This document shows, piece after piece, positions 43,422-63,905 of a DNA stretch of 64,000 nucleotides. The notes under the pieces are model-generated. The model was given only the letters and a program-made list of their open reading frames with translations, was not told the origin of the DNA and searched no databases. The DNA comes from Porphyra umbilicalis (lineage: Eukaryota; Rhodophyta; Bangiophyceae; Bangiales; Bangiaceae): assembly GCA_002049455.2 (NCBI GenBank), contig KV918969.1:62001-126000 (forward strand), in the 5' to 3' direction. A program made the position numbers and the translations under genes. Numbering within the stretch: position 1 is the first letter of the stretch; the number at the start of each line of letters is the position of its first letter.

Positions 43422-46400
43422 TTGAACACGGGCGCCGGGGTGAACATAGTGCGAACTAGTGTTCTTCCTGCTAACTGGATGGCTTTCGCCAAGAAGTTGA
43501 TCAAGCTGCTGCGCACCTGCCATGCAAACAACAACAGTCTCGTGACGAATTATGCCATACATCTGTTTGTAGACACCAGTGGTGTACGTCTATGTGACCA
43601 ATCCCTTGTTTTCGACAATTTGTCAGTCCCGTGCATTCTTGGCACCAATTTCATTGAACAAAACATCGAGACGATCTTGCCGCGTTTGCATAAGATCGTC
43701 TGGCAAGAGCACGTGCGCTGCACGGAGGAACTACATCAACGAACCCCGATCTTAGCTTGTCTTAACGTCAGCACGTGGGACCGCCACTGGCAAGATAGAC
43801 CAGCTCGGGTTAGAGCCCGTAAACAGGGACGTGTCGACGGACAAGAAGAGCAGTGGATCATGGCCACATGTGACACCCCTGGTATGGTAACCATCACACC
43901 GAACGCTCGGTTATGCCGACACAAGGCAATGGCGGTCGCCCGCTGCCTTGCCATCGTCAATCCCGACGAACCTTTCTTAGTCAAGTTATGCGACTTTGGC
44001 GAGGACAAAGTCATGGTTCGCAAGGCCTCAACCTTGGGGTTTGCAGAGCCCTACCAGGGGCCGATGTTGTCCACCGTCTTGGATGACAACCATCCAAAGG
44101 ATGGTACCGATACTTCATCGGACGACGCGAGTCATGACCCCCTCGAGGACCTCAACCTCAGTGAGGCTCCCGAGTTTCTGCACATGCAGATTTGTGACAT
44201 GCTCAAAACCCATTCGTCGATGTGGGATGGAACCCTTGGCGTCATCCGTGCTACGGAGCACGCCATCGTCACTTCTCCAGACGCTCTTCCCATACGGGCC
44301 CAACCCTACCGGACCGGGCCGTTCAAACGGCAGATCATTGCTGATCAGATCAACAAAATGTTGAAGCTCAACTTCATTGCGCCAAGTCATAGTGCTTGGG
44401 CGAGCCCTGTGGTAATTGTACCGAAGAAGAACAGCAAAGCCCGATTCTGTGTCGACTATCGTCGGTTAAACAACATCACAAAGAAGGATGCTTATCCCTT
44501 GCCTCTGATGAAGGACTGCCTTAACTCCTTGGGAGATTCTCAGGTGTTCACGTCTCTCGACTGCACAGCGGGGTACTGGCAAGAGCCCTGACGCAAGGAC
44601 GACCAAGAGAAGACGGCTGTCGAATCGCATTGTGGTATATACCACTGGTTACCAATGCATTTCGGCTTAACGAACGCGCCTGCCACCTTTGGGCGTGCGT
44701 TGTATATGATCCCATCCAGCGTAAAGTGGCAGATATGCCTTGTCTACTTAAACAATGTCATCATCTTCTCCTTGAAGGCGGGACAACACGTTAAAGACGT
44801 TGACACGGTTCTGCACCGTCCGCGCGAAGCAGGGCTTACCCTGAATTCGAAAGAGTGCACATGGTTCTCCGACGAAGTCGAATACCTCGGACACATTGTC
44901 CGCCCAGGGCAACTGCACGTGCAAAACAAGAACATGGATGCTCTGCAGCACGCCAAGTTGCGAACGTCGAAGTCCCATCTGAAAATCTTCCTGTGCATGT
45001 GCAACGTCTATCGACGTTTTTTCAAGGACTCTGCCAAACGCGCGAAGCCCCTGAACGCCTTGACTAGGCCCGAGATCCCACGGGATCTACCACCAACAAC
45101 AAACGTGGCCATCGCCGCGTTCCAAGACCTTTACAACGCACTGTTGTGCCCACAGGAACTTGCCTTGCCATATGCCAACCGAAAGCTCGTCGTCGACGTT
45201 GACGCATGTGCTGACCAAGTCGGCTGTACAATCCCCCAGAAGGACTCGGGCGACTTACCTCATCCTGTAGGATATTGAAGCCGAGGTGTCAATGCTGCCG
45301 AGAGAAACTACTTCACCACGGAGCGCGAATGCCTCGGCGTCGTGTGGGCTGTCCTCAATTTGAGGCACTTCCTCGATGGGCGACGGTTCCTCATCCGAAC
45401 GGATCAGCAAGCACTCAGCTGGATCTACAGCACGACCGACTCAAGCGGACGCTTGATGCGATGGCGACTTTGCCTCTCGGAGTACCCATACGATATGGTT
45501 GATAAACCAGGTGCATCGCACCACTTGCCCGACTTCCTGTCGCGCGCCTCTACGGTGCCGCCGCCAGAAGATATTCATCATGAAATACCTTGCCTGGCAC
45601 TGGCCGAGACGGCGAACGGCTTAAGAACGGGGAGGAACACAGGTAACGACACACCGGAACCGGTGGAGTTCGACGACATTGTCGACGCACAACAAACAGA
45701 CGACTACTGGGTCGAGATGTCCACTTGCGTGAAACGCGGAACGGCCAAGGCTTTCTGCCGCAACGAGCATCACGCTCTGTATCGCCGAACGCCTTACGGC
45801 AACCAATTGGTCATACCAAAATCAGCAAGCGATTGCTTCTTGATGCTCGAGCACCACGCCACAGTGGCAGCCCATCCTGGTATGAACCAGATGGTCTACA
45901 TCATGCGAAAGGTATATGACTGGCCTTCGAAGGTAACGGACATCCACACCACCATCACCAAGTGCAAAATTTTGTGCCCAAAACCGCCTCGCCTTGCGGC
46001 GAAACACCACGCCTTTGACGCTGTTTCTGGTTACTGAGCCTCTCACGGCGCGGTCCGTTGACATATTCGGGCCCATCCTGGCCTCCAAGAAGGGCAATCG
46101 ATTCATCTTGGTTTTCACCGACCGCTTCACCAAGCTCACAAAGTGTGTCGCCTTACGGCGAATGACGGCCATGTCCGTGGCGTCAGCCATCATCGACGCG
46201 TGGCTGTCCTCCTGCGGGCCACCGTACCGGGTCCCATTGGACAAAGGGCCCCAGATCATGTCGAACTTCTTGATCGCTGTGATGAAAATGCTTGGCATTG
46301 AAAAGGTTCGCACCACGGTGTATCACCCCAAAACAAATGGGCAAATTGAACGGTACAGCCGTACCATTGCTACTCAGCTGCGACAATACGTCGCTGATGA

Positions 46401-46854
46401 CCCAGCACGATTGGAAGAGCTACTTTTGACAATCAGCATGGCATATAATAACCAACCACGCCGGTCTACGGGTATCGCACCATTTGAGCTTGTTATCCCG
46501 AGGCGGATCCCCAACCTCACGGTTTGCAAGTTGCCCCCGGGCACTCCGCTGACCAATCAGGGAGCGCTCAAAGATGGGTTACCCCAAGCTCGTAAACGCG
46601 AGGTCATGGCCCGCCTGCGCAAGCAAATCACCATCTTAGTCAAGGCCTTACGTAAGACGCAACAACATTGCAAACGTACCTTCGACCATCGGGAAGCAAC
46701 CCGCAATGCGGACGTCAAAATCGGCGACTTCGTATACACGACCAACCACGATCGGCAGAACAAGCTTCACAGAGAAGCCATTGAACCCTTAGTGGTCATT
46801 GTCGCAGACGCGGATGCCTCCACGTTTGAAATTTCCATTGACAGGGAGGAATAA
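43422..46854 (+). pseudogene. pol: Ty3/gypsy pol: protease, RT, RNase H, integrase, decayed
   Basis: Domains in the usual order. Protease: LNTGAGVNIV at 43422, where the catalytic Asp codon reads AAC (Asn). Reverse transcriptase: FCVDYRRLNN, then motif A with TSLDCTAGYWQ, but the catalytic YxDD reads YLNN (codons 44751 and 44754). RNase H: VDVDACADQVG, ECLGVVWAVLNLRHFL, RTDQQALSWIYS. Integrase: a degenerate HHCC (HHATVAAHPG; KCKILC), then a core with DIFGP, LDKGPQ and KTNGQIERYSRT, so D, D and E are all present. Stops: TGA at 44589, 45276 (in place of the Trp expected in GYWSRG) and 46035. A frame change lies near 45995, and the frame ends at TAA 46852. The chromodomain that should follow is displaced to 51.2 kb by an inserted element. 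Confidence 0.92.
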
Positions 46855-46870: not shown

Positions 46871-46892
46871 ATCGTCGGCAACCGCGCCCACC
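46871..46892 (+). repeat. Left TIR of element 1
   Basis: Starts ATCGTCGGCAACCGCGCCCA. Matches the right end (51160-51181) with one mismatch and the ends of element 2 with one mismatch. Confidence 0.85.
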
Positions 46893-47842
46893 GCATCTCA
46901 GCCGCATCTCACTGCACTTCGGCTGCATTTCGCAGACAATCGCATTTTCGGAAGCTTCGCACGACCGGAATGCAGATCTCGTCATATGTGAGTCCAGATG
47001 CATGGATTCTTTGCAAAGCAATGTCATCCGTTTAACCGGCTGCGGCGGGAGGATGTATAATTTGATTCATTTATTTCCTACTTCATTTAAGCCTTGACGG
47101 CTGGCTAATTCTTGTTCTGTCATCTGCCGGTTATCACGTCTCGGATGGACCTCAACGCCACTTACTGTCACTTGCATCAAGTTATCGCCACTTGTCTCGG
47201 GCTGACTTCCAGGCAGGCCACTTGACAGCCTGATATCAGCGGCCTACTGTGTCTGGCACCCGTGTCGGATGATCAGATACACCCTCACAGACACCGGGCC
47301 CACCGCCTTGACACTGTCGTGTCCGGGAGCACAGCCGTGGCTGCTTCTGAACTGCGGTGCTGGGGCTCCAGGCGAGTTCGGGCCGGCAACGGGCGAAGTC
47401 GAATAGGTCAAAGTGCATTGATAGTGCATCTGCACTGCCTCTCCGTCAACACATCCGCCACAGGCGCGGGCGCTATTTCCCGATCGCGTGCAGACAAACG
47501 GGACCATTACAGGCAGCCAAGAGAAGCAAGAACAGAAAAGGGAGCAGGGGAGGCGTCAGTTTGTGCGATCACGAGAATCACCAGGTCGCGATCCCCCCCC
47601 CCCGCCTTGGAAGGCCGTGGCCTCACGCCCCTCCCCTCCCCCAGCCCCCAAATCCACACGCGCTATAGCGGGCGGCGTCTACCTCCCCTTACACCGACGC
47701 CCAGGCGGCGGCGGCGACGGCGGCGGCAGCGGCGTCAGCGGCCGCACACACATCCAATCGCGAAACCCCCTGCGCGTTTGCAAGCAGTCAGTAAGGGTGA
47801 AGTAAAGTCGGTAGACACATGGATTGAGAACTGATATGGGCT

Positions 47843-48517
47843 TCATGACGAAGCCCCAATGCATGTCAGTTGCTGTCCATATGACATAACAAGACTCAGA
47901 TGCAGTCGAGATGGCACCGGAATTCCACAGTCGCCACAGTAAGGCAATAAGACAGGCCCACACCAGCCGCGCGACTGTACCGAGTCCCTGCTTGACACTT
48001 CTTCACCCCCGCCGTGACCACCACCGGATCGCCGCAGGCGCGGCCCGCGGAGGCCACCGCCACCCCCCCGCGCCGCGACCACCACTGGATTGCCGCCGGC
48101 GCCGGCCGCCGACGCCCACCAGTCACCCGCCACCTCCGCTGCCGCGACCAGCACCGGACCGCCGCCGGCCCAGCCGGCGCCGCCAGCCGAGTCACCTGCC
48201 GCCCTTTCCGGTGCGACCACCACCGGATCGCCGCCGGCACTGCCGGCGCCGCCCGCCGAGTTACCTGCCGCCTCCTCCGCCGCGGCTTCCGCCGGATCGC
48301 GGCCGGCCCCGCCTGTCGAGTCGCTCGCGGCCTCCCCGACCACGGCCACCACCGGATCGCCGTCGGCGCCGTTCACCGTGTCACGGGCCGCGTCCCCTAC
48401 CGTTACGAACACCAAATTGCCGCCGGCGCCGCCTACCGAGACAGCCGCCACCGCCCTCGTCCTCTGAGCGCTGCCACGACACGTGCAGGGCCAGAGGCGG
48501 GGGTGGCCTGCGCTCAA
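47843..48517 (-). CDS. Gly/Ala-rich repeat ORF in element 1
   Basis: A 224-codon minus-strand frame with about five diverged repeats of 22-26 residues built on a GGAGGDPVVVA core followed by EAAGDSAGGAG. The unit is degenerate at DNA level but keeps its peptide pattern, which gives slight support to this strand. It has only a TTG start candidate and ends inside less repetitive sequence. The corresponding part of element 2 is longer and different. Could be a cargo gene or repeat noise. Confidence 0.3.
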   Translation of the reverse strand: MSAGHPRLWPCTCRGSAQRTRAVAAVSVGGAGGNLVFVTVGDAARDTVNGADGDPVVAVVGEAASDSTGGAGRDPAEAAAEEAAGNSAGGAGSAGGDPVVVAPERAAGDSAGGAGWAGGGPVLVAAAEVAGDWWASAAGAGGNPVVVAARGGGGGLRGPRLRRSGGGHGGGEEVSSRDSVQSRGWCGPVLLPYCGDCGIPVPSRLHLSLVMSYGQQLTCIGASS

Positions 48518-49411
48518 CCCCCCATCTCCTCGCCGTGATAGAGGGGGAGACCCTGCGAGCCACCTGAAGACATGCAGATTGATCGCGATCTCTAGTTGGC
48601 CACGCAGTTCACAGGGCTATGTAGAAAACAACGTCGAGCACTGATGAAAAACTGAGAAACGATTTCCATTTGAGAACAAGAAATCGAATTTCAACTACGA
48701 GAAATAGCCGCCGAAGATGTGAAGAAATATTCTGGTAGTGCAATTGCGTTATTTTAAGGCCATTCACAATGCTTATAGAGAACAATTACACAAAAACGAC
48801 TTACTCAAGGAGGCTTAATCATTGAAATATCCTCAAGAAAGTTTTTTTGCACCTGACTATTCGTGATATCCGTTCTATGAATGCTCTTCGATAGTTCTTT
48901 GTGGCGTGCTCGTGATTGACCGTTGCAGCGGCGGCCGCCCAGACTGTGTCGGCGGCAACGGACGCGGATGCAAACAGTTTGTCAAGCACGGCGACTCTTG
49001 TGGGCGAGACGACACACGTGTGGCCGCGACAGTCGCGACAGTGCACCGCACTGTCCGCCATCCTCCCGCCGGACCGTCCGCCATCCCTTCGCCCCACCTT
49101 TCGCCCTGCTCCACTGCGCCGCGCCTCCCTGCCCCCGCATAACCCCCTTCTTACCCGCCACTGCGCTACAGGCGCCGCCGCTGTGGCCGGCGCCCACCCC
49201 ACCGAACTCCTCTTTTCCTCCCTTCGCCTTCCCCCCGTTTTGGTGGCGCGCTACCCTCCAACTTCCCTTTCGCACGGCCCCCGAACCCACCATTGGCGGC
49301 GGCGGCACCTTCGGAAGCGCCTCTCCCCCCCCCCCGCGGCCCCCCCCCGCACGGTTCGTCGATCACCTCGACGTGCGGCTGGCCCGCCGCAGGGCCGCCC
49401 CCTCAGGGTAG

Positions 49412-49882
49412 GTGGCCGCCCGCGTCGCACCCGTTGCCGCCGCGGAGCTCGCCAATGTCATGAGGGGGCGGCTGGACGTGGCCGCAGCCGACGCGGACCT
49501 GGCCCCGCACGTCGCCGCCGTGCGTGTGGGCGATCGTGCGGACAAAAATGACCTTGAGGGGTGGGCGGGTGGGGGGAAGGGGCGGGGGCGGAGGGGTGAC
49601 GCGGTTTGTGCGCCCCGCCGACACGGACCTCCACGTACACACGTACGTCCTGGAGGGGGGTTCCGACTGGAGGGGGGTTCCGCCACCGTCGGCGTGGGGG
49701 GTGGCGTCGCCGATGGCGACGCGGGCCCCGACGACGACGCTCTTGACGGCGCCGAAATCAGAGCCTCAATCACTGCCAAACGTGTGATAGAGATGCTCTC
49801 AGACGGCTTCAAAGGCGAATTTTCTGAGGCTTCCGCACAGCCTCAGGCATTCGGGAGTGTCTTGGCCGTGAGACCTGTGTAA
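49412..49882 (+). CDS. Conserved unidentified ORF of the TIR elements
   Basis: A 156-codon frame. Its first part (ELANVMRGRLDVAAADADLA, then VRVGDRADKND) has a homologue on the minus strand of element 2 (54300-54190; MAAADADLVPHVATMRVGD). It ends with a distinctive peptide (ITAKRVIEMLSDGF, then QAFGSVLAVRPV) found again at 50462 and in element 2. The middle Gly/Arg-rich part crosses G runs where the two elements differ in frame, so the true frame may switch there. No known domain. It may be the remains of the element's own protein. Confidence 0.4.
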   Translation: MAARVAPVAAAELANVMRGRLDVAAADADLAPHVAAVRVGDRADKNDLEGWAGGGKGRGRRGDAVCAPRRHGPPRTHVRPGGGFRLEGGSATVGVGGGVADGDAGPDDDALDGAEIRASITAKRVIEMLSDGFKGEFSEASAQPQAFGSVLAVRPV

Positions 49883-50461
49883 GCATCTACTGCTGATCTT
49901 CAAAGCTTGGCGGTGGCAGAGTGGTTGCAATCATTCAACAGCGTACGTGGACCAATGGAAAGGCTAGGAATCATGTGAGCTCCTTATAAAGTCTCCTCAT
50001 GCAGTTCTGCGCACTGGAAACGCACATCAGGATCGCAGGAAATCTGAAGTAATTTGTTGATCACATAAGAAACCACAGCTCTGTCTCAGAACCCTCTCCA
50101 TGCCCTCCTCAGGCCCAAGCGAGCGGCCCAAAAATCTCAGGAGATCTCATTGTGGGTTGGAATGGATTTGCGTGACTCCTGCAAGACACGTTGATTGGCT
50201 CGCAAGATTACAGGTGGCAACTCTCAACCAATAGTACGCTCGTGGCTTATCAAATAGCCAATCCGACTTCGTTTCTATGCTGCGTCGTCGGCTCTGCCTC
50301 CCTTCTCTCTGCAACCTGCAATTTTTGGTTGTTAGCAATACATGTTTTTGCTGACGTTGTACTGCATTGGATGACATTGAATGACATCTCACCCTGTCAC
50401 ACTTCATCCACGAGTGAGAGCTCTTTGGGTCCTTGCCACACCAAAGTCCTGAATCACTGCC

Positions 50462-50659
50462 AAGCGTGTGATGGACATGCCCTCAGACCGCCTCCAAGGC
50501 TTTTTTCCTGAGGCTCGCGCACAGGCTAAGTCATTCGGAAGTGTCTTGGCCGTGAGAGCTGTTCAACCCAGAATCGTGGTCGCATTAGAGACGCCCGTCC
50601 TTGCCGTGGGTCTCTCTGGTGGCGTCGAGAAGGCACACCTGCGTGATTGGCGATTATGA
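50462..50659 (+). CDS. Conserved peptide of the TIR elements, second copy
   Basis: About 65 codons. It repeats the ITAKRV-type peptide as AKRVMDMPSDRL and QAKSFGSVLAVRAV, then continues PRIVVALETPVLAVGLSGGV and ends KAHLRDWRL. The inverted copy in element 2 (53763-53572) differs by one residue. It is too short to be a complete protein; probably a C-terminal exon or a fragment. Confidence 0.4.
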   Translation, partial: KRVMDMPSDRLQGFFPEARAQAKSFGSVLAVRAVQPRIVVALETPVLAVGLSGGVEKAHLRDWRL

Positions 50660-51159
50660 GACCACAGGTCCAGCAAATCATCTGCAATCAGTCCTGCACG
50701 GACTCCGTTTACTTCCTGTAGCCCCCCAGCAATTGGTCAAAAAACGTTCCTCGCGCTCATTCACATGCACGGCGACGCCCACTTCGGCCACTGGACGCAC
50801 TGGGGTGGATTGAGGACCCACCCTAACGCTTGAGATGCAGTGGAAATGCTGTCCTAACCGGATCGGAGAACTCCAGCCGACACAGTTGTTGCGGATGGCC
50901 GGATGGTTGCACGCATTTGCCTGCCTTTGGTATCATGATGGACTGCCCTAAGGTCAGGTTGGCGGTCAAGTCCTCACGCTCTCAGTCTTAGAATCGACCG
51001 GTCGCGGCCGAGGACAATGCAGCAGAGAAATGACATATACGGACTAGAAAATGATGACAAGATGCAAGCATGTATTTCTTGGAGCACGTCGAGAGCCATC
51101 CCGATGTCGTGTACAGCGCTCGAGATGCAGTGCAATGCAGAAAATGACATCCAGATGCA

Positions 51160-51181
51160 GGTGGGCGCGGATGCCGACGAT
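51160..51181 (-). repeat. Right TIR of element 1
   Basis: Reverse complement starts ATCGTCGGCATCCGCGCCCA. The gypsy reading frame resumes immediately after it. Confidence 0.85.
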
Positions 51182-52375
51182 TTCAACCCAGCCCCTTGTC
51201 CAACAACGACGGAGACGGTGCCACACCCCCTGCTAGATGGTCTAGACCAGCGCAAGCCACCCCTGGCGACTGCCGACGAGTACGTGATTGACAATCCCCT
51301 AGGCTTGCGCCACACTGGCGACAGCTGTAGCGCTAAGGTTCGCTGGTTCGACTACGCGTCGAAGGACGACACCTGGAAACCCCTGGAGAATCTTTCACGC
51401 AACCTGGTGGTGTGCTTTTTTAGACAGAAAAAGGAGCACGTATCAGGGTTTGAATGGCAAACATCAACACGGCGAAGTCTCCGACAAGCCGGGCTCACAA
51501 CCGTGGCCAACATCGTCATGAAATCAACGTCGATACTCAATATCCAGCATGTGCATGTTACCGGTGACGAAATTATCCATGACAATGTCTCGTGGACAGA
51601 TTGAACTACCGCCGCCGCAATTAATGATTTTTTTCCTGTCGCGTGGCTTGAGTTGACTCTAGCCACCATGACGCGCAACTTTGCGTATGATCCGCAACTT
51701 GCCTTGCGGCAATGTTCTCGGCTAAACTGTGCTTACGATCCGTACACTTATGTGTGGCCAAAATTCGCTCAAGCGACACTGATCGAGTCCGATCCTTCGG
51801 TTCCAGCGCTTCTCAACTGGTTCATCGTGCGGCCGGTACAGCATTTCGATTCAATCCGTCGCCATCTGGCGACCTCCACCGAGAAAGCGTCCGTGGTCAT
51901 CCCACAATGGAGAAACACCAGTTGGTACGCAACCGCCATACGCGCGTGTTTCGAGTACGAAGTACTTTTATCAACAAACGCAAGGGATACGAATCCCACA
52001 CCATGGGCCATGCTGGCCTGCCACTTCCTCCATCGCTATGATGATAAACAGAAAAACTGTGAAGTGGATACGAACATGTCAAACGACAAACAATCACAAT
52101 ACGAAGAAACATCAACACCTGAAAGACGTAAGCGTCAGACATTGGCACACCCTTCCAAGAGGGTCAGCCGAGCAAGTCACTTAACAGTGAACCCTACTAC
52201 TCTTCCTCCTCATCGCTACGACGCGAGTCGCGACAGAGAAGGTGGCGACAGCCAACGCTGGCAGTTAACTCCTGGGAAACGCTACGCGCACGCGTGTTGC
52301 CCGCCGACGGCGGAGCCCCGCCTGACGGCCCCCCGGCCGCATGGGCGCGACGCCTCAGGACGCTCTGAGCGTTAA
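51182..52375 (+). pseudogene. pol: Gypsy chromodomain and extra C-terminal module
   Basis: Continuation of the interrupted gypsy polyprotein. After a Pro/Thr linker, a chromodomain is clear (YVIDNPLGLRHT, then KVRWFDYASKDDTWKPLENL); such domains target chromoviral integrases to modified histones. One TGA at 51602 separates it from an in-frame module of ~240 codons (51605-52375). This has WFIVRPVQHFDSIRRHL followed by SVVIPQWRNTSWYATAIRA. That layout resembles the Dam-like/W-motif regions found in some retroelement polyproteins, but the NPP[FYW] of an N6-adenine methyltransferase is not present at the expected place. The end is Arg-rich and low complexity. Confidence 0.75.
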
Positions 52376-53049
52376 AGCGCGTCGACACTATCGCCTTCTC
52401 TGGCTGAACAGCCTCGACGTGCTGAGCAAAGGGCTCGTAGTTCGCAGCGCCATCAACGGCGCGAGCCACGGCCTGCCCAATGATGACCAAGTCCGACTCA
52501 ACCCTTCGCCCGTCTGCGCGCAGCACGAAACGGTAAAAGCCGGTCATTTGATCCACCCAGGCATGCGCCACCGCTGACACAGCAGCCGCACGGTGCGCGC
52601 GAAGGTGCACGTCGCGCATGCGCGCCTATCCAAACAGAGAAACCGCCGCGGAGGAAGTGACACGCGTCGGCCAAGTGGCCTCGACGGCCCGTGGCGCCGT
52701 CATCGACCGCCAGCGATCACGACGTGGCGACCGCGAGCGATCGTGAAACGGCGAACGCGGACGGAAGTCACCACCACGATCGCCAATGATGGCATAAGCC
52801 CCCCCCGGATGGGTCTGCCGTCCGCGACGCCACACCCCGAGGTGACTCGGAGGAACCGGTGGCACATGGGCAGGCGCGTTCGAATCAGGTGCTCAGTCGA
52901 AATCCTCACACGAGTGTCGAAGGCAAACGCCGAACCGCTCAGTTGCATCGACAGATACGCGCACGTGTCGCGCCGTGCCGGAGTCTTGGTCCCGACGGAC
53001 CACGTCCTTAAGGACGACCCCCCAAGGAGACATGAACATTGCGCGGCGC
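52376..53049. other. 3' untranslated part of the gypsy element; LTR not identified
   Basis: Should hold the polypurine tract and 3' LTR. A G/A-rich AAGGAGACATGAACATTG lies just before element 2, but no sequence here matches the region upstream of gag, so the LTR is either truncated by element 2 or too diverged to see. Confidence 0.3.
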
Positions 53050-53071
53050 ATCGTCGGCAGCCGCGCCCACC
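53050..53071 (+). repeat. Left TIR of element 2
   Basis: ATCGTCGGCAGCCGCGCCCA plus two bases; identical to the inverse of 58395-58416. Confidence 0.88.
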
Positions 53072-53571
53072 TGCATCTGGATGTCACTTTCTGCATCGCA
53101 CTGCATCTCGAGCGCTGTACACGACATCGGGATGGCTCTCGACGTGCTCCAAGAAATACATGCTTGCATCTTGTCATCATTTTCTAGTCCGTATATGTCA
53201 TTTCTCTGCTGCATTGTCCTCGGCCGCGACCGGTCGATTCTAAGACTGAGAGCGTGAGGACTTGACCGCCAACCTGACCTTAGGGCAGTCCATCATGATA
53301 CCAAAGGCAGGCAAATGCGTGCAACCATCCGGCCATCCGCAACAACTGTGTCGGCTGGAGTTCTCCGATCCGGTTAGGACAGCATTTCCACTGCATCTCA
53401 AGCGTTAGGGTGGGTCCTCAATCCACCCCAGTGCGTCCAGTGGCCGAAGTGGGCGTCGCCGTGCATGTGAATGAGCGCGAGGAACGTTTTTAGTTCACGT
53501 GCTGAGGGGCTACAGGAGGTAAACCGAGTCCGTGCAGGACTGATTGCAGATGATTTGCTGGACCTGTGGTC

Positions 53572-53790
53572 TCATAATCGCCAATCACGCAGGTGTGCCT
53601 TCTCGACGCCACCAGAGAGACCCACGGCAAGGACGGGCGTCTCTAATGCGACCATGATTCTGGGTTGAACAGCTCTCACGGCCAAGACACTTCCGAATGA
53701 CTTAGCCTGTGCGCGAGCCTCAGGAAAAAAGCCTTGGAGGCGGTCTGAGGGCATGTCCATCACACGCTTGGCAGTGATTCAGGACTTTGG
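53572..53790 (-). CDS. Conserved peptide of the TIR elements, element 2 copy
   Basis: Inverted copy of 50462-50659. It encodes the same ~63 residues with one change (Ile to Met after PR). A further, more diverged copy of the leading peptide lies at ~54020-53890 (minus; EMLSDGLKGSFSETCAQPQA). Confidence 0.4.
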
Positions 53791-54006
53791 TCTGGAGAGG
53801 ACCTGAAGAGCTGTCACTCGTGAAAGAGGTCTGACGGGTGAGATGTCATCCAATGTCATCCAATGCAGTATAATGTCAGCCAAAACATGTAGATGCTAAC
53901 AGAGGTCTCACGGCCAACACACTTCCGAATGCCTGAGGCTGTGCGCAAGTCTCAGAAAAAGAGCCTTTGAGGCCGTCTGAGAGCATCTCTGTCACGCTTT
54001 TGGCAG

Positions 54007-54300
54007 TTATTCAGGCTCTGATTTCGGCGCCGTCAAGGGCGACGCCGTCGGGGCCCGCGTCGCCATCGGCGGCGCCGCCCCCCCCGCCGGCGGCTGTGGA
54101 ACCCTCCTCCTTCCGAAACCTCCCTCTAGGGCGTTCGTGTGTACGTTGAGGGCCGCGTCGGCAGGGCGCACCAACAGCGGCACCCCCCCCCTCCGGCCCT
54201 TTTCCCCAGCCGCCCACCCCCCCAGGACATTTTCGTCCCCAATGTCGCCAACGCGCATGGTGGCGACGTGCGGCACCAGGTCCGCGTCGGCGGCGGCCAC
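54007..54300 (-). CDS. Conserved unidentified ORF, element 2 copy
   Basis: A minus-strand frame homologous to the 49480-49690 part of element 1. It reads MAAADADLVPHVATMRVGDI, then LVRPADAALNVHTNALEGGF in one frame, whereas element 1 needs a frame switch across a G run. Further upstream on the minus strand (~54780), MCALRVFSMACSCLTAAAAA looks like a signal peptide but continues into low-complexity sequence. Function unknown. Confidence 0.35.
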   Translation of the reverse strand: MAAADADLVPHVATMRVGDIGDENVLGGWAAGEKGRRGGVPLLVRPADAALNVHTNALEGGFGRRRVPQPPAGGAAPPMATRAPTASPLTAPKSEPE

Positions 54301-55353
54301 GTCCAGCCGCCCCCTCCAAAAAGGGGGGCGGCGGGGGGGGGGGAAGGCGCCGCCGACGGTTCCGCTGCCACCGCCCGTGGTGGGTTCGGGGGCCGGAGGG
54401 CAGGGGGGTTGGAGGGTAGCGCGCCGCCATAACCAAAAAATGGCGGAGCGAGGAAAAGAGGCGATGGGGGGGGAGGGGGCCGGCCAGAGCGGGGGCGCCT
54501 GTCGGGCAGTGGCGTGTTAGGAGAAGGGTTATGCGGGGGCGGGGAGGCGCGGCGGGGTGGGGCGGGGCGAAAAGTGGGGCGAAGGGATGGCGGACAGTCG
54601 GGCGGGGGGATGACGCACAGTGGGGTGGACTGTCGCGACCGTCGCGGCCACACAGGTGTCGTCTCGCCCACAAGAGTCGCCGTACCTGACGAACTGTTGG
54701 CACCACGTCCGTTGCGGCCGCCATAGTCTGGACGGCCGCCGCTGCAGCGGTCAAGCACGAGCACGCCATGGAGAACACCCGAAGAGCACACATGGAACTG
54801 ATCTCAAGGATAGTCAGGTGCTCAAAACTTTCTTGAGAATTTTTTTCATTCTCAAGCATCCTCGAATGAGTCTTTTACCAGTATGTACTTCTTTGTGTAA
54901 CTGTTCTCTATGAGCATTGTGATTGGCCGTAGAATCTCACAATTGCACTACCGAAGTATTTCTTCACCTCTTCGGCGGCTATTTCTTGTTTTCAAATTCC
55001 GCTTTCTTCTTCTTGAATGGAAATCGTTCGTCATTTGTATATCAGAGCTCGATGTTGTTTTGTAAATAGTTCTGTCAACTCCGTGGTGATCTGCAGATCG
55101 GGCCAAGTCTGTATGTTTTGAGGGAGCTCGCAAGATCTCCCCGTCGATCATGGCGAGGAAATTGGGGGGGGCGGCCGCCGCTGCCGCCGCCGCCGCCGCC
55201 GCCGCCGCCGCGCACCGCCCCGCCTCGCCGCCGCGCACGCGGCTCGCCGTGACGCCCCGCGCGCCGGGGCGGCCGGCGGCGGCGGCGGCGGCGGCGGGGC
55301 GGCCACGCGCCGCGCCGCGCCATCCGTGACACGACGGCGGTCGACGGCCGCCT

Positions 55354-57092
55354 TTGCGGCGGCGGCCACCAGCGGCACCGGCACCGCCCTCTCCCTCCTC
55401 CGTGCCACCCACCTGCCCTCTGCCACAAGGGCGGCGGCGGCGGCGACGGCGGCAGTGGTGGCGTCCCCGCGCAGCCCCGCCACCACACGTGGACGGCCAT
55501 GGCCTCGTGCCGCCGCCTGCTCTTCACCGCCCTCCTCGCCGCTGCCATCATGGCTGCCGTCGGCATGGCGGAAGGCCCCCCCGCCGTCGGCGGTGGGGTG
55601 GTCGGCGCGCCCGCCGCGACTGCTACCACCGCCGCCGCCGACGCAGCCGCCGCGTCCGCCGCCGCTGCCACCCGGCGCCTGCCCACGCCGCCCGGCCGCG
55701 GGCAGGCGGCGGTTGTGGAGACACCGCGGAACGGCGGGGCGGCCGCGATGACCTCGGCGGCGACGGCGGCGACCGCCGCGGCAAGAGAGGCGACGGCGGC
55801 GGCGACGGCGGCGACGGCGCCGGCGGCGGCAGGGGCGGCGGTGACGGCGGTGACGGCGGCGGCGGCGGCAGCCGCAAAGGCGGCGGCGACGGCAGCGGCG
55901 GCGGTAATGGCGACACAGGCGCCGACGGCGGCAAAGACGACGGCGGCGGCGGCAGGGGCTGCGGCAATGGCGGCAACGGTGGCGGCAGCGACGACGCCGA
56001 CGGCGGTGACGGCGGCGGCAAGGGCAGTGGCGACGAAAACGGCAGCGCCCGCGACGGCAGCAGCAATGGCAAAGGCGGTGGCAGCGGCAACGCCCCCAAC
56101 GGAGGCGGCTACGGCGGTGGCGGCAGCAACGGCGCTGACGACGCCGATGGCGGCGGCAATGGCGGTCGCGGCGGCAACGGCGACGCCCCCGACGGCGGCG
56201 GCAACGGCGGTGGCGACGGCGACGGCGACCCCCCCCCCTTCCCCCCTCCCACCCCCCACCACACACGTCGACACAGGCGGCCTCGACCTCCAGGGCGACG
56301 ACGATTGGGCGGCGGACCCCCCCCCCCCCGACGCCCACCCCTGGTCTGCGGCGGCGGTGCGCGTGGAGATGCGCGCCCCCCCCCCTTCCCCACCACCCCC
56401 ATCCCGCCAACAACCTCAACGACGGCACATGCGGGCAGCGCAACAGACAAATCGCGTCGCTCCTCAACGTCGTGGCCCTCGCCCCCGCCCTCGCCGTCGA
56501 CATGGCGGCGGTGAGGGGGCAGTCGCCCCCACCCCCGCCCCCCAGCATCGTCGTGCCGCGCATGTCGGCAGGCTCGGATACCTGGCGCAAAGCGCAGGCG
56601 ACGCTACGTCCGACGGTAACGCCTCTCGCGATACCGCCGCCGCGGCCGCCGCCCCCGACGCCGCGCGTCGACCGGTCGGCGGCGGGCGCGCGCGCGCTCG
56701 CGGCAGCAGCGGCGGCGGTGCCGCCGCCACCGCCTCCGCCGCCGCCACCACCCGAGGCGACTGTCCCACCACGGCCCTTTCGGCGTATCTACTTTCACGG
56801 CGCCGCCGGGGCGGCGCCGGTGCCCGGGTGCGGCGGCACCGAGCCCGTCAACGGCCTCGCCGGCTATTTCACGCTCTCGAGCCTAGTCCTCGCGCTCCCC
56901 GTCGACAATGCTGTCGGCACCTTCGCCGGGCGTTGCGTCGCCGCCGCTGCGGCAGCGCCAGGCGTCGTCTGCCTCCTACCCAGCGCGAGCCTCGGGGTCA
57001 CCTCGGGGGGCTCTTCCGTTCGCGCCGCCCGCAGCGGCTCCTACTCCGACGCGGACGGCGGGAGCGTGACGGTCGGCCCCTCCGTCGGTTAG
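55354..57092 (+). CDS. GC-rich Gly-rich coding region (cargo?) of element 2
   Basis: Several + strand frames overlap. One starts MASCRRLLFTALLAAAIMAA at 55499, a good signal-peptide candidate. A second, staggered frame (55354-56514) is strongly Gly/Asp/Asn-rich with GGGNGG-type repeats and ends in a His/Pro/Arg tail. A third (56472-57092) ends in a normal-looking 90-residue segment with EPVNGLAGYFTLSSLVLALP, one Cys pair and a terminal GSVTVGPSVG. Together they suggest a secreted Gly-rich protein with a C-terminal domain, broken by frame changes in GGC repeats. None of the three frames alone is convincing; the minus-strand frames (up to 480 codons) are Arg-rich shadows. Confidence 0.3.
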
Positions 57093-58394
57093 AGCTGCGC
57101 CTCGTGGGCGCCCCGGTCGCACGCGCCAGGCCTCTGCTGGCTCCGCCCCGCCTCGGCCGCTGCGGTCGGGGCGGTGATGGCGACCGCGTCGGCCAGTAGG
57201 GTGCCCGCCGACGTGTTGCACGTCGCCTCCCCGTTTCAGCCAGGGGGGGGGCGGGACGGGAAGAGGCCGCGCTCGGCGCTGCCGCGCACCATCGGAGGTG
57301 GCGGCGGCGGCGCGGATGCGCGCGCGGTTTGTCGGGGGGAGGTCGGGGGGGGGTGTAAGACCACTGGGGTGGCAGCGCAGCCCGCGGTTTGGGGCGTTGA
57401 TCGGGAAGAGGGAAGCAAGAGGCCGCATGCAGGTGTAGGTGTGCGTTTGGGGGGGAGGGGGTGGGGGCGGTAGGCCACGGCCTGCCGCATGTTTGGGCGT
57501 AGGTGGGGGGGGAGGGCGGGGGGCGGCCGCCCTCGGCGCCGCCGCTTACCTGGGACGGTTGGCCACGAAGGTGGCGGCAGAGGCACGGGTGTGGGTGCAA
57601 GTTGGGGTGGGGGGGGGGGGGGTGGGGCTGTGTGTATGGGGGGGGGGCGCGACCTGGTGCTTTTTATGGTCGCACGAACTGACGCCTCCCCGGCGCCCTT
57701 TTCTCGTCCTGTGCTACTCTTGGTTGCCTGTGATGGCCCCATTTTCGTGCACGCGCTGGGTAAATGACGTCCGCGCCTGTGGCGGGTGAATTGGCCAGGA
57801 GATACGTGGGAGGCACGCACCTGTGCTGAGGTTGACATGAACGGAGATGCCGTGCAGGTGCACTATAAATGCAACCTGATCAATTCGACTTGGCCCTTGT
57901 ACAGCCCTCACTCGCCCGGAGCCCCAGCACCGCTGTTCAGAAGCTGCCACGGCTGTGCTCCCGGACACGGCCGTGTCAGGGCGGTGTGCCCGGTTTCTGC
58001 GACAGTGTGTCTGACCACCCGACACGGGTGCCAGACACAGCAGGCCGCTGATGTCAGGCTGTCAAGTGGCCTGCCTGGAAGGCAGATAAAGTCAAGTGGC
58101 GACAACTTCATGCAAGTGACGGCAAGTGGCGGCAAGCTCCATCCGTGACGGGATAACCGGCGGATGGCTGAACAAGAATTAGCGAGCCGTTAAGGCTTGA
58201 ATATAGTAGGAAATAAATGAATCAAATTATACATCCCCCCGCCGCAGCCGGTTAAACGGATGACATTGCTTTGCAAAGAATCCATGCATCTGGACTCACA
58301 TATGCCGACATCAGCAGAGCTGTCGTGCGGAGCTTTCGAAAGTGCGATGGTCTGCGAAATGCAGCCGAAGTGCAGTGACATGCGGCTGAGATGC

Positions 58395-58416
58395 GGTGGG
58401 CGCGGCTGCCGACGAT
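58395..58416 (-). repeat. Right TIR of element 2
   Basis: Exact reverse complement of 53050-53071. TGCATTT-like subterminal motifs lie just inside. Confidence 0.88.
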
Positions 58417-58830
58417 CTTGCCATAAAAGGCATGTGCCGCCTTGCCGTCAGGCGCCTCATGCATTTTGGACGTGTCCAGAACGACTGAGTGACGAAGTGT
58501 GTTCTCATCCAGACGGACAAAGACCTTGTCCTCTTGAAGGGTGCGAATCCAAGCAGTAATCAGATTTCAGGAGTCCTCCGAGTGCACGATTTGCCGAGCA
58601 TAACTACTTTGTTTCGCAGCGAGTCCGCCAGGTACAACACCACAACCGGGGTCGCCACCCAAATATCGATATTGGGCTACTAGTCGGGGTCTGACGGAAG
58701 CCAGCGAGTGACGCTGCGTCTCTGATTCGGTGGATCGTTCGACATCGGGTCCAAACTTTCACGGCGTGGGCTACGGGCGCCTCACCGTTGGCATTGCCGT
58801 CGTCCACCGCCATAACTGCGTGATCCACCA
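58417..58830. other. Unassigned sequence between element 2 and the copia insertion site
   Basis: Short minus-strand frames of ordinary composition (for example 58604-58858), without domain. Possibly older transposon remains. Confidence 0.3.
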
Positions 58831-58940: not shown

Positions 58941-59358
58941 TGTTGAATCGCAGTGGGGATAGGGGTTGGGGGACCACGTTAAAGTGGTTGAGTGGCTTGA
59001 GCTTGTGTGTGTGTGTGCAAACGTGCTTTGTTGGTTGCCCGTAGGTTCGCCCGCCTCTCCAAACCGAGAGCACCTCTCAAATAGTCCCCACCGGCCCAAG
59101 TGCTCCCTCCTCTCGCGCCCACACCGACGCCCACGCCCTCGCACCAAATCGAATCACTCACCAAATCAAAATCCACTAGAGCAAAGCGAAGATCAAATCC
59201 AAAACATGCCAAAAGTAACGCCCCAAGATCACCCAACACGAATGTTTGCAACTTGACCACGTCTTGCAAATGTACCATGTGGGGTACCATATGGGTCACC
59301 GACCATCATCCATCCGCGAAGCGCCAGTGGAGTCGGCGACGAGCATCACAGTCCAACA
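58941..59358 (-). repeat. Copia 3' LTR
   Basis: 418 bp, begins TGTTGAATCG and ends AGTCCAACA on the + strand, so ends are TGTTG...CAACA. Contains a (TG)n stretch. About 97 percent identical to the other LTR by eye. Confidence 0.95.
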
Positions 59359-59367
59359 CTCCTTTTT
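59359..59367 (-). other. Copia polypurine tract
   Basis: On the minus strand AAAAAGGAG directly abuts the 3' LTR; primes plus-strand DNA synthesis. Confidence 0.75.
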
Positions 59368-59393
59368 GCCTGTTGCCGCGGTGGTTCTTGTAT

Positions 59394-60962
59394 TCAGCAA
59401 AGCCCCATGGCTTCAACATGCTTGTCGTGCTTGGTCTTGCCGAGCTCCTTCGTCATCGGGTCCGCCACCATGTCGTCAGTTGCACAATGCTCAGGTGTCA
59501 CCTTGTCCGTCGTGATGGCCTCGCGCACGAAGTGGTATCGAATGTCGATGTGCTTTGTGCGCTTGTGCTCGACGGGGTTTTTGAAGAAGTCAATGCACCC
59601 GCTGTTGTCGACCTTGATGTTGATCGGCCCGCCAGAGATCGCTGTTCGCAGCCCTTGGGATCCCACGCTTTGCACGAGCTTGTTGAGCCAAACAGATTCC
59701 TTGCTGGCCTCACATAAACCCATGTACTCAGCTTTCATCGTCGACAGCGCCACTGTCTTCTGCAACTTAGAACCCCAGCTGACGACTGCTCCGCCAAAGA
59801 CGAAGGTGAAGCCCGTCGTAGATCGTTGCGTCTCGTGGTCACCCGCCCAGTCGGCATCACTATAGCCTTGTAGAAAACAGGAAGAGTTCTTGTCGAAGAC
59901 CAGCCCCTTGTCCATTGAACCCTTGACATACCGTAGAACGCGCTTGATCGCCGCCCAATGCTCCTCTCCGTAGCACGAGACAAACCGACTCAGCTTCCCG
60001 ATGGCGAAGGCGAGGTCAGGACGCGTCCAGACCATCAGGTACATTAGGCTGCCGACGGCTTTGCGGTAGGGCAGCGCGTCGTCGCTCTCGCCGGCCTTGA
60101 CCAGCTGCAGGCCCACCTCCAGCGGCGTTCCGATCGGGTTGCACTCCGCCATCCCGAACTTCTCCAGCACTTGCCCTACGTACTTTCCCTGCGACAGCTT
60201 GAGGGTGCCCAACGCCTTTTCACGTCTTCTCTTTCGCCCGAGGATGACCGTCGCCTCGCCCAGGTCCTTCATCTCAAAACGCTTGTGCAGAGCGTCCTTA
60301 ATCTTGTAGATCGCTGCCAGACTTGATGCCACCAAAAGAAGATCGTCGACGTACACCAGGCAGATGATGATTTCGCCGTCATCCATAAGGAGGTAGAGGC
60401 ATGCATCCGGGTCAATGTTGTCAAACCCCTGCGACTTGAGGAAGGCGTCAAGCTTGGCGTACCATATCTTGGGGGCTTGCTCCAGCCCATACAGCGCTTG
60501 CAGGAGACGACACACCTTGTCAGGATACGTCGGATCGACATAGCCGTCTGGCTGCTCCATGTAGACCTCCTCGTCAAGGTCGCCGTTGAGGAATGCCGTC
60601 GTGACGTCCATCTGATGTAGCTCCCATCCGTTCGCCGCCGTCATCGCCAGGATGCATCGAATGGTGGTGAACTTGGCCACCGGCGCGAACGTCTCGATGA
60701 AGTCGAGCTCCTTGATCTGCCGGTGCCCCATGAAGCACAGGCGCGCCTTGTCCCGCGTCGTGTTGTTCCCGTTCTCGTCAACCTCGTTCTTGACCTTGTC
60801 AACCAACTGCCCTTCAGCACGACGCGACTGGCCGGGCGATCCGTCAAGCGCCAAGTTTTGTTCTTGTGGATGGCCTCCATCAACTCGACCATGGCAATCT
60901 TTCACTTGGACGATTCTTGCCCTTGAACGGCTGACACGTACGTCGTGGGCGCCTCGCGCCAA
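59394..60962 (-). CDS. pol: Copia reverse transcriptase and RNase H
   Basis: A 522-codon frame. The first ~55 residues are out of frame with the real polyprotein (AIHKNKTWRL is found in another frame at ~60860), showing local indels. From residue ~55: KARLCFMGHRQ, FAPVAKF, LHQMDVTTAFLNGDLDEEVY (motif A), QALYGLEQAPKIWY, CLVYVDDLLLVAS with the catalytic YVDD intact, then the RNase H region GYSDADWAGD, MKAEYMGLCEA, VDNSGCIDFFKNP and HIDIRYHFVREA. Ends at 59394 just before the polypurine tract. Length is normal for copia RT-RNase H, so this is the best-preserved part. Confidence 0.93.
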   Translation of the reverse strand: MARGAHDVRVSRSRARIVQVKDCHGRVDGGHPQEQNLALDGSPGQSRRAEGQLVDKVKNEVDENGNNTTRDKARLCFMGHRQIKELDFIETFAPVAKFTTIRCILAMTAANGWELHQMDVTTAFLNGDLDEEVYMEQPDGYVDPTYPDKVCRLLQALYGLEQAPKIWYAKLDAFLKSQGFDNIDPDACLYLLMDDGEIIICLVYVDDLLLVASSLAAIYKIKDALHKRFEMKDLGEATVILGRKRRREKALGTLKLSQGKYVGQVLEKFGMAECNPIGTPLEVGLQLVKAGESDDALPYRKAVGSLMYLMVWTRPDLAFAIGKLSRFVSCYGEEHWAAIKRVLRYVKGSMDKGLVFDKNSSCFLQGYSDADWAGDHETQRSTTGFTFVFGGAVVSWGSKLQKTVALSTMKAEYMGLCEASKESVWLNKLVQSVGSQGLRTAISGGPINIKVDNSGCIDFFKNPVEHKRTKHIDIRYHFVREAITTDKVTPEHCATDDMVADPMTKELGKTKHDKHVEAMGLC

Positions 60963-62164
60963 ACCAGGCTCACCGGGCGCCAGTACTCGAGAGGTGGTCG
61001 CCTCGCTCTGCCGCTCCGACGCAGCTTGTCTTGAGAGCCGCCACTACCTTGATTCTCGCCCGCGGACTCGTCAGATCCATCGTCTCGCTTGTAATCCTTG
61101 TCGTCATTGTCAGCATCTACGTCTTCGCCGTCGCTTGCAGACCGCAAGATCGTCTCGAATTCGACAACTTCGTTTTTGGGAAGCTCCTCCGCAACTTCTG
61201 CGACCTCGGATACGTTCGTCTCGGCGAGCACAACACTTCGTGCCTTGACGACCTTGCCGTCGTCGAAGACGACTTTAAACGCCTTGCTGCCGTCAAGATA
61301 GCCTAAGAAGACGCCCTTCGCCGCCTTGTCGCCAAACTTGCCGTCGATGTGACTCTTGTGCAGCACGACTCAGCATGTCAACCCAAAAACCAGCATGTGG
61401 CTTACGTTGGGCTTATTCCTGGTCCACAGCTCAAAAGGCGTCTTGCCGACGGGAAGCGCCCGGCTGGTGACGCGGTTCTTGATGTACACCGCTGTCTTGA
61501 TGGCCTTCGCCCAAAGATCCTGATCGACGTCCTTGTGTCGCATCATGGCGGGAGCCATCAACACGAGAGCTCGGTTGAGCCGCTCAGAAACTCCGTTCTG
61601 CTGCGGCGTGTCGGGCACCGTGGTCTGGTGCATCGTGCCGTTCTCATCGTGAAGAGCTTTGAATGCGTTCGACACGTACTCGCCGCCATTGTCGGATCGC
61701 ATGATCTTGTTTTTGGTTCCTGTGTGCAGCTGGGCCTGAGTCACCCACTTCTTGTACTCAGAGAGCAAATCGCTCTTCTTCTGCACGAAGACCACGTCGG
61801 TCCAGCGGGAAACGTCGTCGGAGAAGGTGCCGAAGTAGAGCGCACCGCCACGCGACGGCTCCGACATTGGCCCGCCCAGGTCCGAGTGCACAAGCTGCAG
61901 GCGCTTGGTCACTCGACCTCCTCGTGCACTAGGCATAGGCGTCATAGCCGCCTTCTCATACACGCGCGGCTCGCAAAAGTCCTTGACCGACATCGAAGAG
62001 CACCTGAGTCCATTGATGTCCTTGTTCTTTATCATCCGTTTAACGCCAGCCACGTTGACATGCCCAAGGCGCTCAAGCCATCGCTGAAGAGAGAGGCCAC
62101 CGCAGCAATATCCGACATAGGGGCCATGTCCAGGTGGTAAAGCCCGCTTTTCAGCGTGCCGCAC
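60902..62164 (-). pseudogene. int: Copia integrase
   Basis: Frame from ~62164 to 60902, broken by a TGA at 61370. The gag-pre-integrase zinc finger is damaged: RLGHVN is present but the first His reads as part of WLE, and CEPRVY has Arg for the second Cys. The catalytic core is intact in sequence: VHSDLGGPM (Asp), RSDNGGEYVSN (Asp), PQQNGVSERLNRAL (Glu). Downstream come TPFELW, the KAAKGVFLGY segment and an acidic linker leading to the RT. It integrates the cDNA with a 5-bp stagger, matching the observed duplication. Confidence 0.88.
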
Positions 62165-63321
62165 GCAGCGACCTTGTCGCTGATCTTAGTGATCGTCTGA
62201 CCGCCATTGAATGACACATCCGCACCACGCTCCTCCATCATGCCGACCGACATGAGGTTGAAGCCCATTGAAGGAACATGGAGTACCTTCTCCAATTTGA
62301 TCTTGCGCGTCTTGCCGTGAACGATGACATTGAGCACGACGGTTCTGACGCCCGCCGTGGCTATGGACCCCTTGTCACCCATCGTGACGCTCCGTCCCGT
62401 GGTCGTATGGTAGTCGGCGAAGCACCCGCGCATCCAGCACATGTGTGCAGACGCCGCAGAGTCGACAAGCCACGACTTGGACCTGTCATCGGTGTCAGCT
62501 GCATTGCCCACCAGGCAGATGGCGTCGTCGCTGTCGCTACCATCTTCAGCCGCAATCGCGGCCACCTTGTCCTGTCTCTGCTTCTTGGCATTGAGCTCTG
62601 GGCAATCGCGAGAGATGTGCCCAAACGTATGACAGTAGTAGCACTCGATCTTGGAGAGGTCACCACGGCGGCCTTGACCTCGATTGTTGGCGCAAACGAG
62701 TGCCATGTCGCCAATGCGCTTCGTCGCCGGTGACTTGTCCGCCTGACGCCGCTCCTCCTGAAGCAAGCGGCTCTTGACAAAGTCGAGGCTCAGCTTGTTC
62801 TCGCCCTTGGCGTCGAGAGCAACCAGCAGGTTCTCGTACTTGGACGTCAGCCCATTGAGGACGCTCATGGCAGCGTCCAGCTCCGTCACCTCGCCGCCCA
62901 TGGCATTGAAGTTCTCGCCGAGGTTGCGCACGCGGTTGATGTAGCCCAGCATGCCCTCGCCGACGGTCATTTCGACGGTGTAGAACTTGCATCGCGCCTT
63001 CATCTTGTTCATCAAACTTTTGCGATAGAAGACACCTTGCAGCGTCGAACAGATCTCCGCCGTTGTCTTGCAGCCCGAAACGTGCTCGAGCTGCTCAGAC
63101 CCGAGGGTGAGCCCGATGATGGCACTCGCCTTCGTGTCTCGGCGCTTCCACACCGCCAACTCGCGGGTCCTCGCGTCCGTCGGCTTGCCGTCTTCGTCAA
63201 TCATATCGTCCAGGTCGCGCAGCGCGAGGACCACCTGAATGCGCTGACGCCACTCATGGAAGTTCGTCTCCGTCAAGTTGTCGATCTTGATGCCGCCCAT
63301 GCCGGCAGCACTTCTGTCCAT
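62032..63321 (-). CDS. gag: Copia gag and protease
   Basis: A 429-codon frame from ATG 63321. Residues 1-195 form the capsid-type region (UBN2/gag-like: NFHEWRQRIQ, then YENLLVALDAKGENKLSLDF). Residues 227-240 are a perfect CCHC zinc knuckle (CYYCHTFGHISRDC). Residues 284-293 hold the copia protease motif WLVDSAASAH, where DSAAS replaces the more usual DSGAS; the catalytic Asp is present. The frame then enters the gag-pre-integrase region and ends at 62032 after a frame change near 62100, which puts the rest of the domain in the next frame. Confidence 0.9.
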   Translation of the reverse strand: MDRSAAGMGGIKIDNLTETNFHEWRQRIQVVLALRDLDDMIDEDGKPTDARTRELAVWKRRDTKASAIIGLTLGSEQLEHVSGCKTTAEICSTLQGVFYRKSLMNKMKARCKFYTVEMTVGEGMLGYINRVRNLGENFNAMGGEVTELDAAMSVLNGLTSKYENLLVALDAKGENKLSLDFVKSRLLQEERRQADKSPATKRIGDMALVCANNRGQGRRGDLSKIECYYCHTFGHISRDCPELNAKKQRQDKVAAIAAEDGSDSDDAICLVGNAADTDDRSKSWLVDSAASAHMCWMRGCFADYHTTTGRSVTMGDKGSIATAGVRTVVLNVIVHGKTRKIKLEKVLHVPSMGFNLMSVGMMEERGADVSFNGGQTITKISDKVAACGTLKSGLYHLDMAPMSDIAAVASLFSDGLSALGMSTWLALNG

Positions 63322-63466
63322 GATGTCTTCTTGTTGTAGTGCCGGACCTTGCCCAGCCGTGCGCCTTGACCGTCACGTCCTTGAACCACCTTGACCTCGT
63401 TCTCTTCGCACTTGCCGCGACCGCAGCGGCACCAGCCGGCACACCTTGCTCTTGTCACAGCCCCGG

Positions 63467-63482
63467 CTCTGGGCCCATAACC
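63467..63482 (-). other. Copia primer-binding site (internal initiator-tRNA type)
   Basis: On the minus strand, GGTTATGGGCCCAG directly follows the 5' LTR. It is complementary to the anticodon stem-loop region of initiator tRNA-Met (the loop contains CAU), not to a tRNA 3' end. Drosophila copia uses this site with a cleaved half tRNA as primer. Confidence 0.75.
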
Positions 63483-63900
63483 TGTTGAATCGCAGTGGGG
63501 ATAGGGGTTGGGGGACCACGTTAAAGTGGTTGAGTGGCTTGAGCTTGTGTGTGTGTGTGCGAACGTGCTTTGTTGGTTGTCCTAAGGTTCGCCTGCCTCT
63601 CCCAACCGAGAGCACCTCTCAAATAGTCCCCACCGGCCTAAGTGCTCCCTCCTCTCGCGCCCACACCGACGCCCACGCCCTCGCACCAAATTGAATCACT
63701 CATCAAATCAAAAGCCACTAGAGCAAAGCGAAGATCAAATCCAAAACATGCCAAAAGTAACGCCCCAAGATCACCCAACACGAATGTTTGCAACTTGACC
63801 ACGTCTTGCAAATGTACCATGTGGGGTACCATATGGGTCACCGACCATCATCCATTCGCGAACCGCCAGTGGAGTCGGCGACGAGCATCACAGTCCAACA
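63483..63900 (-). repeat. Copia 5' LTR
   Basis: 418 bp, same termini as the 3' LTR. It should carry the promoter on the minus strand; no TATA box is asserted. Confidence 0.95.
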
Positions 63901-63905
63901 CCCGC
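63901..63905 (+). repeat. Copia target-site duplication, right copy
   Basis: CCCGC immediately after the element, matching the left copy. Confidence 0.85.

Follow-up and report, generated by a model that had tools for sequence, protein, structure and literature searches.

Two non-autonomous DNA transposons of a red alga, probably mobilized by a Plavaka-type transposase carried in long copies of their family

Plavaka DNA transposons have been described from fungal lineages, in which, according to the available portion of PMC12730594, PlavakaA elements end in TGT..ACA and PlavakaB elements in CATCA..TGATG. The same source gives target duplications of 2–3 bp for Plavaka, 2–5 bp for the CMCT clade and 8 bp for Zisupton; fungal EnSpm elements have CAC..GTG ends and 3-bp duplications, and ESTA elements duplicate TA. 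Transposases of the CMCT clade share catalytic residues together with C(2)C and H(3–4)H motifs, and the clade includes Transib and its relative RAG1 (PMC12730594, as available in part). Among the titles listed by a search of the Plavaka literature none concerns red algae, and EnSpm does not occur in any of the papers listed for red-algal repeats. Here we analyse a 64,000-nucleotide stretch (the window; C209:62001-126000) of the red alga Porphyra umbilicalis, which contains two related elements, A and B, and compare it with 83.8 Mb of genome sequence in 665 contigs. Profile matches in this genome point to a red-algal host: ten light-harvesting rows, and 11 Phycobilisome rows, of which 10 lie on the plastid-like contig C665 (eight almost complete, two from a single frame) and one on C128. 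Fungal_trans had no match, which carries little weight because its control gave none either. A and B each belong to one of two sister subfamilies and are non-autonomous, ordinary DNA transposons in kind. The family is dispersed and has common termini, its empty sites differ by a 2-bp step, and its long copies have a transposase gene at a constant distance from the right end; with high probability A and B are cut-and-paste elements moved in trans by the Plavaka-type DDE transposase of long copies.

A first-pass annotation had described a head-to-head pair of 4.3- and 5.4-kb elements with matching 22-bp terminal inverted repeats (TIRs) and shared internal blocks. Our analysis bears this out. Allowing up to three mismatches, the end ATCGTCGGCAGCCGCGCCCACC matches four times in the window (46871+, 51160−, 53050+ and 58395−) and not once in 100 shuffles. 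Without their flanking AT, A and B measure 4,307 and 5,363 bp. They share inverted blocks that include 789 nt at 97%, 576 nt at 88% and 336 nt at 84% identity, among others, and their inner blocks in common are 75–89% identical. The two are oppositely oriented with their right ends facing each other, right being the side of the transposase gene in long copies. The 22-bp ends are real, except that their outermost AT is read from empty sites as target duplication, so that the TIR starts CGTCGGCAG.

With up to three mismatches allowed, the genome contains 166 occurrences of the 22-bp end, against 21 of a reversed control; 77 of the 166 are exact (43) or carry one mismatch (34). The left terminal block matches at 87–100% identity in the best 40 of 54 candidate places, A and B included, and the right block was likewise found at the best 40 of 53. 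The genome search proposed with the first description thus recovers a dispersed family, from which we extracted 19 full copies, A and B among them. Nine form subfamily alpha (A, C1, C4a, C4b, C30, C99, C94, C179 and C182; 3,295–4,307 bp) and ten form subfamily beta (B, C134, C135, C13a, C13c, C26, C35, C56, C66 and C92; 4,238–6,314 bp). A-like and B-like copies stand singly elsewhere in the genome, each with its own ends. The flanks of C4a and C4b are alike (98.5% on the right, 92% over 158 bp on the left), and these two copies are probably a segmental duplication.

No transposase was found in A or B by Pfam searches of selected frames, and at E 1e-5 nothing in the window matches the C203 transposase frames described below. 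The family nevertheless has one. The right-end loci of C203, C410, C292 and C33 have in common a coding region that adjoins the right block on its inner side. Searching the genome with the spliced protein of C203 placed the transposase gene in these four copies, part of its last exon only in C39 and a piece of its second exon only in C95, and in five of the six (all except C95) the match ends 1,521–1,523 bp from the right end. On C292, C410 and C33, left ends of matching orientation are found 15.5, 19.8 and 24.9 kb away. All three of these long copies exceed the 26.3-bit cut-off of the Plavaka profile PF18759 (C33 at 42.5, C292 at 36.2 and C410 at 28.9 bits), as does a relative on C84 (31.8 bits). 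The first-pass description thus holds for A and B themselves, and its suggestion of a family whose transposase escapes recognition by eye proved apt, since other copies encode the enzyme and the Plavaka profile recognizes it.

The C203 locus (L067) contains YSDG, SDQPEERD, CTPC, HRAVSH and NEALHK, which we read as D, D, C(2)C, H(4)H and E, the catalytic residues being picked by eye with the account of the motifs in the available part of PMC12730594 as a guide, and not by alignment to known members. So read, the motifs fit the EnSpm–Transib–Plavaka (CMCT) clade. The C84 relative (L071), whose alignment has three main stretches at 63, 60 and 49%, keeps DQPEER, CTPC, H(4)H and NEALHK, that is, every motif after the first D, and we infer an intron directly after FGFDRLH at the same position in both genes. 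The spliced C203 protein has 73 rows of related matches, which indicates a large gene set in this genome. Many of the genome-wide rows for Plavaka (best 123 of 169 candidates) and Transposase_21 (best 150 of 176) lie in open frames of several hundred residues. Among viral contigs, 11 stretches matched a pattern and none was confirmed as a relative.

Several observations weigh against assigning the family to this enzyme. All four copies in which the third exon was compared carry lesions there, stops or a small deletion, and none of them is an intact source of transposase, though ratios of non-synonymous to synonymous substitution (dN/dS) of 0.42–0.75 among them over 214 codons suggest some constraint. 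For L067, which contains a frame change, Pfam searches with single frames and the spliced protein returned nothing for Plavaka at E values up to 5, and C203 and C39 are missing from the best 123 of 169 Plavaka candidates in the genome. The reading of the first catalytic D comes from a single copy. The ends of the 15–25-kb copies are paired by position only, and the letters read from long copies are those of L067 and of 1.5 kb inward of the other right-end matches. Finally, the best 40 of 57 candidate places for the alpha and beta interior include none in the transposase copies, so only the terminal blocks link A and B with the long copies.

These points leave room for the Plavaka gene to be a nested passenger in the long copies, with another transposase moving the family. 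The genome indeed holds many other transposases (at least 123 Plavaka and at least 150 Transposase_21 rows), and most of each long copy, with ends paired by position, lies outside the letters read. We nonetheless consider a passenger gene very unlikely, because its spacing from the right end is constant in five of six copies, none of the 150 scored Transposase_21 rows (of 176) falls in the C33, C410 and C292 intervals, and the 2-bp duplication described below agrees with the 2–3 bp given for Plavaka in the available text of PMC12730594. No KDZ row appeared in the Pfam results for the L067 frames and spliced protein or in the search with the C84 relative.

The target duplication favoured here as part of a Plavaka-type mechanism is visible at both ends and at empty sites. 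Of 67 end rows, one was a false internal match and two belonged to the duplicated C4 copy; among the remaining 64 ends, AT is present at 63, and exactly CGTCGGCA adjoins it at 57. Uninterrupted paralogues of the C94, C1 and C56 sites have the two flanks separated by one AT. The paralogue of the B site (L019) has GT at the junction, AC on the other strand, and again a 2-bp step. For A, a query of its flanks joined by one AT matched Gypsy retrotransposon copies at the best 40 of 287 candidate places; 32 of these 40 scored rows cover all 302 query bases in exactly 302, and the other eight cover 297–300. The A site was thus assessed from alignment lengths and positions, and the other four from letters; together they give a 2-bp step at five sites. 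At a sixth locus, C21, compared on its left side only, one paralogue (L031) has AT, in agreement, and another has AC.

From these comparisons we read AT as a 2-bp target duplication and not as part of the TIR. The first-pass annotation had seen no clear target duplication, although the AT lies inside its own 22-bp end; the empty sites of A, B and the three other copies otherwise match its boundaries. The 2-bp step rules out a Helitron-like or blunt insertion. It would be formally compatible, letter for letter, with an AT that belongs to the element and replaces 2 bp of target lost at insertion, as its presence at 63 of 64 ends might suggest. That arrangement is very improbable: it requires AT to have been replaced by AT each time, since the paralogues have AT in three of four two-sided sites, and a 2-bp duplication is simpler and lies within the 2–5 bp range that the accessible part of PMC12730594 gives for the clade.

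Outside the AT, base composition is also skewed. With left and right ends pooled and read from outside inwards, C is found at −1 in 43 of 64 ends (p = 2.7e-10), A at −2 in 26 (p = 1.4e-4), C at −4 in 31 (p = 7.7e-4) and G at −5 in 35 (p = 4.1e-5), each position tested singly and p uncorrected. These preferences describe a roughly palindromic target, GC.AC-AT-GT.GC. At C94, C1 and C56 the empty sites have this C before AT as well.

The GC-rich interiors of A and B have long frames on both strands, which the first-pass annotation had taken as possible Gly/Ala-rich cargo. We examined five conserved blocks in six frames each. Of 10 copies, 7 are open in the most open frame of the 300-bp block B 751-1050, and in B 2551-3300, where 4 of 10 are, substitutions by codon position are uneven (348/241/296) and 21 of the 31 indels have a length divisible by 3, all of which would suit repetitive proteins carried by the transposons. 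Triplet-like sequence of the kind found in B 2551-3300 yields 3-bp indels without coding, however, and elsewhere the signs of coding fade: the longest frames differ from copy to copy, the most open frame of the remaining blocks is open in at most 3 of 8 copies, the four blocks other than B 2551-3300 have near-even substitutions, with 2/37, 2/31, 10/22 and 8/23 indels divisible by 3, and Pfam searches of selected element frames yielded no family at or above its cut-off. Profile searches, as first recommended, identified Plavaka in the long sister copies. Cargo-bearing transposons are therefore highly improbable, and the interiors appear to be mostly non-coding, which is the less certain part of our analysis.

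As judged from their flanks, A and B are both inserted in one Gypsy retrotransposon. Among the Gypsy pol frames beside A, RVT_1 and RT_RNaseH exceed their Pfam cut-offs, and Integrase_H2C2 and rve fall below theirs; near 51.3 kb the spacer between A and B has a weak Chromo match (21.3 bits, under the cut-off of 25.1). The paralogue L019 matches window positions 52288-53050 and then 58417-58708; it joins the two flanks of B, which places B further along the Gypsy that holds A. That all of 46871-58416 is one large element, with 4–5-kb inverted arms around a 1.9-kb centre, would account for the long and largely mirror-image arms, and is ruled out to near certainty by the empty sites, since the Gypsy sequence of the centre runs on into the outer flanks on both sides (by L019), the joined flanks of A match 40 scored places of 287 candidates, and single A-like and B-like copies have their own ends.

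The C39 copy has its right end at the Gypsy position where A has its left end (L031, window 46870); with A and C39 in opposite orientation, this point was hit twice. C1 and both C4 copies share another Gypsy position (L034, L039 and L047; window 43179). In all, 15 of the 67 flank rows match the Gypsy parts of the window, four of them those of A and B themselves, and the abundance of Gypsy may explain such rows.

At their right ends A and B are 96.8% identical, the third highest value among 171 pairs, and three stretches of 100 bp there reach a rounded identity of 1.00; at their left ends they are 88.2% identical, near the median of 88.3%. Right ends so much more alike than left ends point to probable gene conversion between the inverted neighbours.

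In the mechanism that we propose, a Plavaka-type transposase would bind the CGTCGGCAGCCGCGCCCACC ends, and perhaps also the GCATCT-type repeats visible beside them. It would cut both ends and insert them at a staggered AT, with a preference for palindromic surroundings close to GC.AC-AT-GT.GC. A and B would both have entered the same Gypsy copy, and one right end would later have been copied onto the other, probably by gene conversion.

Table 1. Positions in the window of elements A and B, their parts and the surrounding Gypsy sequence
Feature	Position	Strand	Remarks
Gypsy pol frames for reverse transcriptase, RNase H and integrase, next to the insertion point of A	43422..46854	+	
AT read as target duplication of A, left copy	46871..46872	.	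joined-flank matches to Gypsy copies
Element A, non-autonomous, subfamily alpha	46873..51179	+	4,307 bp; TIR CGTCGGCA..TGCCGACG
Left terminal block of A	46873..47446	+	common to B and at least 38 other places, 87–100% identity
GC-rich array, 60–69-bp units	48037..48456	+	in alpha copies; repeated matches in 8 other alpha copies
Insert of about 440 bp in A	49890..50330	.	missing from 7 other aligned alpha copies; part inverted in L067
Right terminal block of A, about 850 bp	50330..51179	+	96.6% identity to that of B (53052-53901); probable gene conversion
AT read as target duplication of A, right copy	51180..51181	.	end tally and joined-flank matches
Spacer of Gypsy retrotransposon sequence, in neither element	51182..53049	+	
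AT read as target duplication of B, low-coordinate side	53050..53051	.	paralogue L019: 2-bp step, GT on the strand of B
Element B, non-autonomous, subfamily beta	53052..58414	-	5,363 bp; right end at low coordinate
GC-rich interior of B, without counterpart in A	55169..57637	.	varies among beta copies
AT read as target duplication of B, high-coordinate side	58415..58416	.	step in paralogue L019

At the point of the roughly 440-bp insert of A, L064 diverges from the family, and in L067 the inverted copy of this insert is interrupted by a 404-bp repeat. A Copia retrotransposon (58941-63901) begins 525 bp beyond the outer end of B; its 419-bp long terminal repeats (58941-59359 and 63483-63901) are 97.1% identical. 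Elsewhere in the window a GC-rich unit of 99 bp forms an array of about 31 copies (13752-16841), and three tandem 405-bp units are about 95% alike (28376-29580). For ten further frames of the window that lie outside the elements, no Pfam family scored above its cut-off.

With fungal Plavaka, as far as PMC12730594 describes them in its available part, the algal family shares a PF18759 match in three long copies, the D-D-E residues with C(2)C and H(4)H, and a 2-bp duplication. It differs in its red-algal host, in candidate autonomous copies of 15–25 kb, in a duplication that is AT at 63 of 64 ends, in its palindromic target preference and in its termini, CGTCGG..CCGACG, which are those of neither PlavakaA nor PlavakaB. 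EnSpm/CACTA and ESTA elements have the same set of catalytic, C(2)C and H(3–4)H motifs, and ESTA too has a fixed dinucleotide duplication; on the same partial account, the CGTCGG ends, the 2-bp step and the lack of any Transposase_21 row in three long copies separate the algal family from EnSpm/CACTA, and duplication of AT in place of TA separates it from ESTA. The 8-bp duplication given there for KDZ (Zisupton) contrasts with the 2-bp step. In the Amoebidium giant repeats, a Plavaka transposase likewise stands beside long repeats, and the portion of PMC11244446 available reports many tyrosine recombinase genes with them; none of the 18 Phage_integrase (tyrosine recombinase) rows lies in C33, C410 or C292, which argues against such cargo in these long copies. 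Auxenochlorella, a green alga, also has Plavaka-type elements, termed EnSpm-Plavaka in the part of PMC12633428 at hand.

Judged by sequence features and by the published descriptions, CG termini, AT duplication and a palindromic target differ from what is given for PlavakaA and PlavakaB. One tentative possibility, drawn from this one genome and which we hold to be somewhat less likely than its opposite, is a third Plavaka lineage, with CG termini, an AT-only duplication, a palindromic target and giant autonomous members of 15–25 kb that feed two abundant GC-rich non-autonomous subfamilies.

A and B can now be assigned to the Plavaka type, a kind already known, with ends and an AT duplication unlike those of the two described lineages. 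Naming an enzyme and a target duplication for a previously unclassified repeat family allows such repeats to be annotated, in a single red-algal genome with at least 123 Plavaka rows, and widens the range of ends and duplications for Plavaka elements. If true, an enzyme that duplicates AT only would be a useful comparison for target choice in the transposase clade that, in the available text of PMC12730594, contains Transib and RAG1.

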